DNA from: Novosphingobium sp. CECT 9465
GTDB lineage: Bacteria > Pseudomonadota > Alphaproteobacteria > Sphingomonadales > Sphingomonadaceae
NCBI RefSeq assembly: GCF_920987055.1
Contig: NZ_CAKLBX010000001.1
Span: forward strand, 2,342,501 to 2,406,500
Length of the DNA: 64,000 nucleotides
Reading direction: 5' to 3'
In this document: positions 40,463 to 43,299 of the stretch, in pieces
Numbering within the stretch: the stretch's first letter is position 1
Layout: each line of letters begins with the position of its first letter
The notes under the pieces: generated by a model
What the model was told of the DNA's origin: nothing
The model's database searches: none
Seen by the model: the letters and a program-made list of their open reading frames with translations, nothing else
Translations under genes and position numbers: made by a program

Positions 40463-40840
40463 TCAGTCCGCGCTGACCTTTGTGACCTTGCGCTCGGCAA
40501 TACGTGCCGATTTGCCGGTCCGGCCGCGAAGATAGTACAGCTTCGCACGACGAACGACACCACGGCGAACCACGGTAATCGAATCGATGTTGGGCGAATA
40601 GAGCGGGAACACGCGTTCCACGCCTTCGCCGAACGAGATCTTGCGAACGGTGAAGTTCGAGCCAAGACCACGGTTCGAACGCGCGATGCACACGCCTTCG
40701 TAGTTCTGGACGCGGGTGCGCTCGCCTTCGACAACGCGCACACCGATGCGGACGGTATCGCCCGCACGGAACGATGGAATTTCCTTCTTCGCCTTGTATT
40801 CGGCGATGGCTTCAGCTTCAAGCTGCTGAATCAGGTTCAT
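40463..40840 (-). CDS. rplS: 50S ribosomal protein L19
   Basis: L19, 125 residues, at the interface of the ribosomal subunits. Family segments: [35 protein letters not shown] region near the start, [30 protein letters not shown] in the middle. The first 23 bases overlap the 3' end of trmD, an unusually long overlap for this operon. Confidence 0.97.
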
Positions 40841-41684
40841 TTTTCAAATCCTGCACTTCACGTTGCGCACCAGAGGCAGATTGGACCCGAGCGCCGATGT
40901 GACGCTCCCAAAGATCCGGCCTGCGTAGCCGTGTATCGTCTTCCGAACGGCGTTTCCGCCACTCCGCGATTTTCGCATGATCCCCCGATCGCAACACTTC
41001 AGGGATCACTCGCCCTTCCCACTCAGCGGGCCGGGTGTAATGAGGGTACTCAAGAAGACCGTTCTCAAACGACTCCTCATGCCCACTCAAGGCGGCGCCC
41101 ATTACGCCGGGAAGCAGCCGAATGCAAGCGTCCAGCAACATCAGCGCCGCACATTCCCCGCCCGAAAGCACGATATCGCCGACGGAGACTTCCTCGACAT
41201 CGCGGCCTTCGAAGATGCGCTCGTCAAACCCTTCAAACCGGCCACACAACAGGATCACCCCCGGCCCCGCCGCCAGCTCCCGCACGCGCTCCTGCGTCAG
41301 CGGCTTGCCGCGCGGGGTAAGCGCAATGACGGGCCGTTGCCCTGAAAGCCCCTCCCCTTCAGGGGAGGGGTGGGGGTGGGGGCCATCCCCAAGCGCCACA
41401 CCAGATGGAGAACCCCCACCCCCAGCCCCTCCCCTGAAGGGGAGGATGGCACCGCGCGCAAAATCCACAGCCTTGGCCAGCACATCCACCCGCAAGACCA
41501 TCCCCGCCCCGCCGCCAGCAGGCGTATCGTCCACCGTCCGGTGCTTGTCAGCCGCAAAGTCGCGGATCTGCACCGCATCCATCGACCACGTCCCCTCAGC
41601 CAGCGCCCGCCCCGCAAGGCTGACACCCAAAGGGCCGGGAAACATCTCAGGGTAGAGCGTGAGGACTGTGGCAGCGAAGGTCAT
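40818..41684 (-). CDS. trmD: tRNA (guanine37-N1)-methyltransferase TrmD with in-frame repeat
   Basis: TrmD, 288 residues, methylates G37 of tRNAs reading CNN codons and is usually essential. Family parts are [80 protein letters not shown], the last being part of the SAM knot. Between [10 protein letters not shown] and [10 protein letters not shown] lies an extra run of about 38 residues (including [10 protein letters not shown]) encoded by a palindromic repeat at 41348-41445. The ATG at 41684 overlaps the stop of the upstream DUF1493 gene (ATGA). The C-terminus extends into the rplS start. Confidence 0.94.
41348..41445. repeat. C/T-rich palindromic repeat inside trmD
   Basis: A 98-bp element whose left arm (41348-41384) and right arm (41413-41445) are near-complementary, each holding a smaller palindrome CCCCTCCCC-TTCA-GGGGAGG. 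On the minus strand it is read in frame as part of TrmD. A second copy of nearly the same length is at 43199-43299. The loops of the two copies differ. Confidence 0.92.
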
Positions 41685-42034
41685 GGCTCCAGCCAATGAC
41701 CCGCTTCGATCACTTTCGCAATGTGTCCGAGTTCAAGCCGCTCGTATGGGCTGGGATTGTTAAAGCTCCCCCGTATTGGCCACGTGAAAAGCTGCCAGAC
41801 AAATTGAAATGGGAAAAGCAGCGACAAACCTTCGTCAAGCAATGCAAAACGCTGCCAAGGCCATTGCCACACCCATTCACCAAACTCACCTGCCAGCGCC
41901 TCTGCTAAATCCTCCACATCACCGCCAGAAATGCCAACGTCCTGATCAATTGCCGATGAAGTAGTAAGCCGATCCCGCCGCGTGCCACTTTGCGCAGCAA
42001 CAATGTCCATCACACGGTCCAGTGTCGCAGACAT
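41681..42034 (-). CDS. DUF1493 family protein
   Basis: Protein of 117 residues. The N-terminal half (residues of about 10-50, with [21 protein letters not shown]) has the DUF1493 pattern, an acyl-carrier-like four-helix fold. A Trp/Phe-rich segment follows ([11 protein letters not shown]) and a terminal [18 protein letters not shown]. Function unknown. It starts by a one-base overlap with the vapC stop (TGATG) and ends in an ATGA overlap with trmD, so it physically links the toxin-antitoxin pair to trmD. Confidence 0.78.
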
Positions 42035-42411
42035 CAAACCGTCCAGTTCTCGACCATCAACCCCGGCACATCCGCAAAGTCGGCCTCGTTGTTCGTCACC
42101 ACCGTCGCCCCGATGCTAAGCGCATGCGCGGCAAGCAGCCTATGTAATTTCCCACGTTTGAAAGGGAGCCTGGCATACTCACGCGCGGCAGCCTCCCCAA
42201 ATTCCAGCACAGGAATCGCCTTCAAGAAGGCGGCGATCACTTCTGGCGGCGGGGGCTTCTGCAGTTGTGTTCCAGCAGAGATCTCAGAAAAGCTTATCGC
42301 GGAAATACCAATTTCTCCGACCTCGCATTCTCCGATCCGGCGGTTCACAGGTGAGGCCGCAACCCTCATTGCATTGATCGAACTGTCGGCATCGATCAGG
42401 TATTTGATCAC
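42034..42411 (-). CDS. vapC: VapC-like PIN-domain toxin, active site altered
   Basis: PIN-domain ribonuclease family, 125 residues. Acidic residues are present in LIDADSSI (Asp), SFSEISAG (Glu) and NNEADFADVPGL. At the position of the third catalytic Asp, family proteins read roughly D-R-L-I-A-A-H-A; here the sequence is KLHRLLAAHAL, with His (codon CAT) where GAT would give Asp. The toxin may therefore be weakened or inactive. The start overlaps the antitoxin stop by four bases. Identification as VapC rests on length, motifs and the partner gene. Confidence 0.88.
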   Translation of the reverse strand: MIKYLIDADSSINAMRVAASPVNRRIGECEVGEIGISAISFSEISAGTQLQKPPPPEVIAAFLKAIPVLEFGEAAAREYARLPFKRGKLHRLLAAHALSIGATVVTNNEADFADVPGLMVENWTV

Positions 42412-42677
42412 AGCAAACCAGCCGCCTTGCGAGCAGCAATCACACGCGGCCTTTCTTCAAAATCTTCACGTGGGGCCAGTCGAATGCCCGGTGCCTTGCC
42501 CGCAAAACCGCTCACATCGATCTTGCGCTTCGCCGCTGGCTTGGCGCGAAACACCAGATCGCCATCAACCCACTCGACGCCCCACTCACGATCAGGCTCA
42601 ACGCCCAGCGCCGCCGGAACGCGGATGGCGACCGAATTTCCAGATTTGAAGCTCTTGGCTGTGTATTCCTTGCCCAT
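42408..42677 (-). CDS. vapB: VapB-like antitoxin (AbrB/MazE fold)
   Basis: Protein of 89 residues. The N-terminal half is a swapped-hairpin AbrB DNA-binding domain (AKSFKSGNSVAIRVPAALG, then WVDGDLVFRAKPA), and the C-terminal half is a flexible toxin-wrapping tail (APREDFEERPRVIAARKAAG). GGAGG five bases before the ATG gives a strong start. A perfect palindrome (42688-42708) just upstream is the likely autoregulatory operator. It overlaps vapC by ATGA. Confidence 0.9.
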   Translation of the reverse strand: MGKEYTAKSFKSGNSVAIRVPAALGVEPDREWGVEWVDGDLVFRAKPAAKRKIDVSGFAGKAPGIRLAPREDFEERPRVIAARKAAGLL

Positions 42678-42687
42678 CGCGGCCTCC

Positions 42688-42708
42688 GTATATACAGCCT
42701 GTATATAC
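42688..42708. promoter_or_regulatory. Palindromic operator of the vapBC-like pair
   Basis: A perfect 10-bp inverted repeat, GTATATACAG and its complement around a single C, overlapping the rimM stop codon on one side and reaching the antitoxin ribosome-binding site on the other. AbrB-fold antitoxins bind such palindromes, so autoregulation is the likely role. Its AT-rich centre could also contain a promoter -10 element. Confidence 0.75.
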
Positions 42709-43193
42709 TACTCCACGTAAAGCGCTTCAATCACAATCCTCAGCCCATCCCACTCCGGCACGGCATCAACCTTCATGGGCACCATGAAGCGCTTGCCATC
42801 GGGTTTGCGGATTTCGAGGACGTCGCCTGCACCGAAATTGTCGATGGCGATACATTCGCCCAGCGCTTCGCCCGTGGTGGAGACAACCGGCAGGCCGAGC
42901 AGGTCGGCGTGGTAATATTCACCCTCGCCCAAAGGCGGCAGGGTTGAACGCGGCACAGTCAGCGCCGTTCCGCGCAGTTTTTCCGCTGCGGTGCGGTCCG
43001 TGATTTCGGCAAAGCGGACGATGGCGCCGCCTTTGCTGTCATCGCGAAGCGACGTCACCGTCAGCCTGGAATCGCAGAAGGCGCGGTAGCGCTTGAGCGC
43101 GGCCACGCCTTCTCCGAACAGCTTGAGGCGGACTTCGCCCGTCACTCCATGTGCGCCGGTTATGGCGGCGAGCGTGACGGGCTTGTCGCGCAT
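42708..43193 (-). CDS. rimM: 16S rRNA maturation factor RimM
   Basis: RimM, 161 residues, helps assemble the head of the 30S subunit by binding S19. Family segments: LAAITGAHGVTGEVRLKLFGEG, the beta-barrel end LGEGEYYHADLLGLPVV, and the PRC-barrel IDNFGAGDVLEIRKPDGKRFMVPM. The start is the ATG at 43193; the GGGGAGGGG seven bases upstream belongs to the palindromic repeat at 43199-43299. The frame stays open through the repeat to a GTG at 43310, which I do not take as the start. Confidence 0.96.
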   Translation of the reverse strand: MRDKPVTLAAITGAHGVTGEVRLKLFGEGVAALKRYRAFCDSRLTVTSLRDDSKGGAIVRFAEITDRTAAEKLRGTALTVPRSTLPPLGEGEYYHADLLGLPVVSTTGEALGECIAIDNFGAGDVLEIRKPDGKRFMVPMKVDAVPEWDGLRIVIEALYVE

Positions 43194-43198
43194 GGCAA

Positions 43199-43299
43199 GC
43201 CCCTCCCCTTCAGGGGAGGGGTTGGGGTGGGGGGCTGCGGCTGAGCGCTGCGCCTTTCGGCCAGCCCCCACCCCCGGCCCCTCCCCTGAAGGGGAGGGG
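43199..43299. repeat. C/T-rich palindromic repeat between rpsP and rimM
   Basis: A 101-bp element of the same family as the one inside trmD: arms 43199-43234 and 43265-43299 are near-complementary and each holds CCCCTCCCC-TTCA-GGGGAGGGG. It fills nearly the whole gap between rpsP and rimM and provides the purine-rich ribosome-binding site of rimM. Confidence 0.92.

Follow-up and report, generated by a model that had tools for sequence, protein, structure and literature searches.

A VapBC toxin–antitoxin module fixed between rimM and trmD in sphingomonads, with a putative self-regulated promoter for trmD-rplS

The window, by which we mean the whole 64,000-nt stretch of DNA analysed here, carries on its minus strand the gene order rpsP-rimM-vapB-vapC-(third gene)-trmD-rplS, as read from the sequence with the families checked. 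The order rpsP-rimM-trmD-rplS is that of the operon in Escherichia coli. A preliminary description of this DNA had placed three genes between rimM and trmD and an operator at 42688-42708, and our reading of the sequence agrees in both gene coordinates and operator position. The features are as follows.

45271-43775, minus strand: ffh
43724-43311, minus strand: rpsP
42708..43193, minus strand: rimM (Pfam RimM), with a putative start at 43193; a longer ORF to 43310 enters a repeat
42688..42708, no strand: predicted vapBC operator, two self-complementary GTATATAC octamers 5 bp apart
42408..42677, minus strand: vapB, an AbrB/MazE-like antitoxin of 89 aa, with GGAG ahead
42034..42411, minus strand: vapC, a short PIN-domain toxin of 125 aa with a GTG start and D90 replaced by H
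41681..42034, minus strand: third gene, 117 aa, with an ACP fold but no phosphopantetheine serine
40818..41684, minus strand: trmD, tRNA (guanine37-N1)-methyltransferase, with an in-frame palindromic-repeat insert at about 41349-41447
40463..40840, minus strand: rplS, ribosomal protein L19

The junctions from vapB to rplS had all been described as overlapping. Indeed, vapC meets the third gene in TGATG, the third gene meets trmD in ATGA, and trmD and rplS overlap by 23 nt; the 4-nt vapB/vapC overlap is GTGA and not the ATGA given earlier, because the vapC start codon is GTG. The rimM stop TAG (42710-42708) shares one base with the operator, and rimM too is therefore physically joined to the vapBC unit.

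Two palindromic-repeat doublets with CCCCTCCCCTTCAGGGGAGGGG-type arms, at 41349-41447 in trmD and at 43200-43299 between rpsP and rimM, bracket the stretch of rimM, vapBC and the third gene, and the trmD doublet forms part of the reading frame of that gene. The genome contains 17 CCCCTCCCCTTCAGGGGAGGGG-type sites at ≤2 mismatches; all 3 exact sites and 1 of the 14 others fall at these doublets. Among 123 TrmD proteins, 17 have 60-99 residues between two fixed motifs versus 47-53 in the other 106. The long loop follows GGGAGM at loci L001, L008, L023, L036, L050, L060, L070, L075, L080, L111, L119 and others. The inserts differ, and several resemble translated repeats by eye (e.g. ...RFRGDD, VSTSLDTNG), which suggests that the essential TrmD repeatedly captured different palindromic repeats in frame.

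The window VapC matched the PIN domain in Pfam (E 2.2e-6, above cut-off), as did 30 of 30 aligned relatives. The NCBIfam model VapCLeptosp, of the tRNA(fMet)-specific type, was matched at E 1.4e-15, below the family cut-off, and the aligned VapC group matched PDB entries 9h6a (E 9e-25) and 3tnd (E 3e-24). A DNA-binding antitoxin is encoded just upstream, as in VapBC systems: VapB matched PDB VapB chains at E 1.8e-5, and 10 of 13 aligned members matched Pfam MazE_antitoxin at E 0.1, with no match for the window VapB itself. The 4-nt vapB/vapC overlap recurs in 115 of 133 loci. The trmD-adjacent VapC proteins are short, with 124-127 aa in 111 of 134 copies versus 131-134 aa in 28 of 44 others, and the corresponding alignment gap falls just before the catalytic D.

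The window VapC retains D7, E43 and D111 and has H at position 90. Across the 133 full-length trmD-adjacent copies, D7 and E43 are invariant and D90 is present in 131; the clade as a whole therefore has the acidic active site, which H90 breaks in the window copy. D90 was also found in all 28 readable VapC relatives of the same genus (L302 is unreadable). A read error at H90 is unlikely because three neighbouring residues differ too. In Bosea VapC, alanine at D7, E42, D98 or E119 abolishes growth inhibition, according to PMC8522696, and D98 is the equivalent of window position 90. This loss of a catalytic residue (D90H) in the window toxin is a further point against the earlier interpretation. 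We infer that the window VapC is a weakened or dead toxin in which repression may be kept, and the window pair is possibly a repressor without a toxin.

Autoregulation by VapBC, with the operator at the promoter, is described in PMC4803016. In the window the operator is GTATATACAGCCTGTATATAC, a perfect 21-bp palindrome occupying exactly 42688-42708; judged by sequence, it is the palindromic operator of type II VapBC systems. The doublet GTATATAC-N5-GTATATAC was present in 112 of the 130 trmD-adjacent loci with enough upstream DNA and absent from 18, and the spacer between the octamers was 5 bp in 110 of the 112. Of 44 loci not adjacent to trmD, one (L102) had the operator, and its contig ends 1.1 kb after vapC. 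GGAG followed the operator within one base in 103 of 109 loci. Additionally, a scan of the 4.39-Mb genome for further VapB targets returned no other match to the doublet at ≤2 mismatches, leaving the operator as the sole match.

Promoter-like sequence coincides with the operator. In the window, a -35-like TTGAAG (42730-42725) lies in the last rimM codons, followed after 17 bp by TATATA (42707-42702), which is likely a -10 box inside the operator. Among 109 loci, 59 had a TTGACA-like -35 box (≥5/6) 15-19 bp upstream of TATATA, versus 4 of 545 shifted controls; the other 50 had no match of 5/6. The rimM stop overlaps the operator in 62 loci, where the -35 box lies within the last rimM codons and the 17-bp spacer was found 41 times. 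In the 47 loci without this overlap the box was found in 18, mostly with a 15-bp spacer, which is short for sigma-70. Codon usage points the same way: of the 35 operator loci with the tail motif (of 54), 33 use ATT for the rimM Ile codon that carries the -35 sequence, versus 10 of 35 with the motif (of 91) where the operator is lacking, and ATT makes up 40 of 331 other Ile codons in operator-group rimM genes. Related loci in this comparison are not independent, and the Fisher values therefore overstate significance. The putative -35 box biases codon choice at the rimM end, and this use of ATT, otherwise uncommon in these genes, is the clearest sign of selection on the promoter. The self-regulated vapBC promoter appears to be the nearest promoter for trmD and rplS in many sphingomonads.

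The preliminary description had proposed a search of the rimM-trmD gap in sphingomonads. With the window VapC as query at E 1e-3, 89 of 298 genomes of the sphingomonad family gave a match and 209 gave none. At least 75 of the 298, from 36 genera, have vapC no more than 2.2 kb upstream of a trmD that shares its strand, a total compiled by hand from the loci of the 89 matching genomes. The remaining 14 comprise one with a 24-codon remnant (G098), 7 whose VapC match falls on a different contig or strand or where the DNA read contained no trmD, and 6 outside the adjacency check. An alignment scan of public species genomes yielded 328 VapC relatives; 79 of the best 80 lie upstream of trmD, and the exception is L102, whose contig ends 1.1 kb past vapC. 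The insertion is thus recurrent and fixed in position, and these two counts rule out a lone insertion in one strain. Within the window's genus, 61 of 149 genomes matched at E 1e-3, and vapC was upstream of trmD in all 29 further loci taken from the best 30 same-genus matches.

Outside the family the picture is different. A class-wide survey found VapC matches at 1e-5 in 74 of 337 genomes, 72 of them outside the family, and none of the 28 non-family class loci read from these 72 had trmD within about 1.5 kb of vapC (or to the contig end). The same held for the 12 non-family loci of the order (0/12 within about 1.5 kb), several of which are cut by contig ends. On a VapC tree of the 96 rows left after thinning (54 of the 132 trmD-adjacent copies, 42 of the 43 others), the label 'trmD-adjacent' needs 3 changes, versus 31.5 with shuffled labels; resolution is low, with 44 of 93 inner branches open. 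Among the loci read, members of the trmD-adjacent VapC group turned up nowhere else. A second group of 7 trmD-adjacent VapC proteins of 129-134 aa (L146, L149, L150, L151, L153, L161, L163) stands apart from the short clade in the tree, possibly a second arrival at one address.

How the module has been inherited was assessed in the 81 loci that have all five genes. VapC distances agree with those of RimM (r 0.52; RimM versus TrmD, r 0.44), RplS and VapB, and weakly with those of TrmD (r 0.15, with 79 of 2000 permutations as high). The nearest VapC neighbour was among the three nearest by housekeeping genes in 28 of 81 loci, versus 3.2 by chance. The evidence on inheritance is mixed and would allow, at most, a largely vertical descent. 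Separately, the 24-codon VapC remnant in G098 (L156, 2225-2296) lies about 1 kb upstream of trmD; judging from it, the module is able to decay in place.

A fixed address could still reflect the site and not the module. We read 40 VapC-negative loci, chosen and not random, from 111 family genomes with listed trmD coordinates, and located rimM in 34. There, rimM touches trmD in 5, and in the other 29 a gap of 0.3-2.9 kb holds other ORFs, named by eye as small membrane proteins, nitrilase-like, LysR-like, CutA-like and others, as well as a thioredoxin-reductase-like ORF on the opposite strand. At several VapC-negative loci (within L164-L203) a small membrane-protein ORF overlaps the trmD start. 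Outside the family the rimM-trmD gap is ≤73 nt in 23 of 28 loci read (86 had a trmD match). The sphingomonad gap is thus a general insertion hotspot inside a ribosomal operon, and position alone could be a matter of tolerance, because other DNA fills it in 29 of 34 VapC-negative loci.

In a rival account, vapBC is a passive and common occupant of a gap that accepts genes, its promoter serves the module alone, and any transcription running on into trmD is without regulatory consequence. The frequent other cargo (29/34, with 5 closed), the short gaps outside the family (23/28) and the patchy presence of vapBC (89/298 in the family, 61/149 in the genus) all speak for it. A random passenger, however, would not be expected to keep to this single address, as the VapC lineage does among the loci read, and at loci with fused vapC/trmD junctions or with opposite-strand inserts upstream, dependence on the vapBC promoter is hard to avoid. 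We regard passive occupancy as unlikely on balance, with a real chance of being right.

Is the third gene part of the unit? Its product is ACP-like in the N-terminal half and has a hydrophobic stretch in the C-terminal half. A profile of the third gene matched acyl carrier protein chains, best 2x2b (E 6e-6, positions 2-61), and the AF2 model (pLDDT 85) gave Foldseek probability 1.00 over about 50 residues with a best E of 8.5e-3, none reaching 0.001. The protein thus has the ACP fold and lacks the phosphopantetheine serine of an acyl carrier protein: in our reading of the alignment register, all 12 relatives have an invariant G37 at the place of the DSL serine. The earlier label DUF1493 (PF07377) is not confirmed: the window protein had no Pfam match at E 1 or better, and of 12 aligned relatives a single one touched the family, at E 0.18, a level at which unrelated families score just as well.

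At E 3e-10 or better, 10 of the 298 family genomes have a clear relative of the third gene, in all 10 beside trmD. Matches at 1e-3 extend to 276 of 298; we infer that the weaker ones listed, N-terminal only and at E 2e-7 or weaker, are ordinary ACPs. An ORF of third-gene size lies between vapC and trmD in 44 loci. A simple hydropathy rule classes 36 of the products as small membrane proteins; another 7 are ACP-like by motif, and the last, at L010, is a partial ACP-like protein. A three-part toxin system of VapB, VapC and the ACP-like or DUF1493 protein, as the preliminary description had it, could point to the co-occurrence in these 8 of 44 loci. Against it, vapBC accompanies the ACP-like gene at trmD in 4 of the 10 genomes and is missing from the DNA read in the other 6; the third gene is a membrane protein in 36 of 44 loci; and none of the 29 same-genus vapC loci read has an ACP-like gene. 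The third gene is no fixed partner of vapBC, and we consider a three-part system very improbable.

Of the 133 full-length loci, 61 have vapC and trmD overlapping each other, by exactly 4 nt in 59. An opposite-strand ORF of ≥200 aa lies between rimM and vapB in 13 loci; in 10 of these it is, in our reading, a recurrent and recognisable protein, and 9 of the 10 keep the operator-vapBC-trmD unit intact (L056 and L057 are near-identical). At L105, from Sphingobium sp. SYK-6, rimM and vapB lie on either side of a 1.8-kb insert. Such an insert blocks simple read-through from rpsP into trmD, and the vapBC promoter is therefore the likely source; in these 9 loci trmD-rplS probably depends on it.

The same arrangement allows an anchoring, or hostage, reading, in which the module is retained because its deletion would take the proximal trmD-rplS promoter with it, so that clean loss is costly and the benefit falls to the module and not to the cell. 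The promoter within the unit, the gene overlaps and the 9 loci cut off from rimM are what such anchoring would produce. However, absence is common (no VapC match to the window query in 209 of 298 family genomes), the rimM-trmD junction is closed in 5 of 34 loci, and the L156 remnant indicates that decay is survivable; we hold anchoring to be improbable. The earlier description had offered a regulatory link to trmD-rplS or an addiction arrangement hard to lose. The first is the best reading of the conserved operator and the promoter-like sequence; the second sits poorly with VapC matches in 89 of 298 family and 61 of 149 genus genomes and with the 24-codon remnant.

We therefore favour, with a probability of roughly 0.6, a VapBC module whose self-regulated promoter serves trmD-rplS. 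A type II VapBC module would have entered the rimM-trmD gap, probably at an early stage of the sphingomonad family, and its descendants, marked by a short VapC, would form a separate lineage that has stayed there while being lost many times. VapB or VapBC would bind the doublet covering the -10 box and repress the promoter, degradation of VapB would open it, and vapB-vapC-(third gene)-trmD-rplS would be transcribed as one coupled message. In this way the module may govern how much m1G37 tRNA methylase and L19 the cell has, or raise both under stress. Against this reading, the window query found no VapC in 209 of 298 family genomes, so that the module is not needed for trmD expression. The nuclease residues of VapC are kept in most lineages, and in the window strain D90H has probably turned the pair into a repressor that is barely toxic or not toxic at all. 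The position, the gene overlaps, the conserved doublet and the -35/-10 arrangement at the rimM end are seen in the sequence; binding, transcription, toxicity, function and direction of control are deduced from them.

A bolder version makes VapBC a dedicated regulator of TrmD, in which VapC would cut a tRNA pool as the same derepression raises TrmD and L19, and in the window strain the toxin would have been disarmed and the regulator alone kept. If true, it would close a loop between tRNA damage and anticodon-loop methylation; we think it rather unlikely and put it forward tentatively. Toxin–antitoxin modules are usually viewed as mobile, dispensable and of disputed function. A lineage that at least 36 genera hold at one place in a core ribosomal operon, with a self-regulated promoter positioned to drive an essential methylase, offers a testable case of a toxin–antitoxin module as an ordinary gene regulator, and trmD-adjacent VapBC connects a tRNase family with an enzyme that modifies the anticodon loop. 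In the literature searched, which left out most subscription journals, we found no report linking VapBC with trmD or rimM; in the available parts of PMC8395126 and PMC12503941, which match both VapC and TrmD, VapC appears in the reference lists only.

Compared with the tRNA(fMet)-specific VapBC of enterobacteria, Leptospira and Bosea (PDB 3tnd, 9h6a), the sphingomonad module has the common PIN toxin with D7/E43/D90 equivalents and likewise an AbrB/MazE-type VapB upstream, overlapping genes and an operator at the promoter. Unlike them, it is fixed inside the trmD operon, its VapC is shorter, and the window copy lacks the D equivalent to D90. Toxin–antitoxin modules are usually mobile and scattered. 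Similar to chromosomal type II modules in general, the sphingomonad module is a self-regulated small operon of patchy distribution; what sets it apart is a single location shared by at least 36 genera and a promoter that trmD and rplS seem to borrow. Relative to the rpsP-rimM-trmD-rplS operon of E. coli, the genes and their order are the same, whereas the sphingomonad operon is opened between rimM and trmD and contains an internal, operator-bearing promoter-like sequence.
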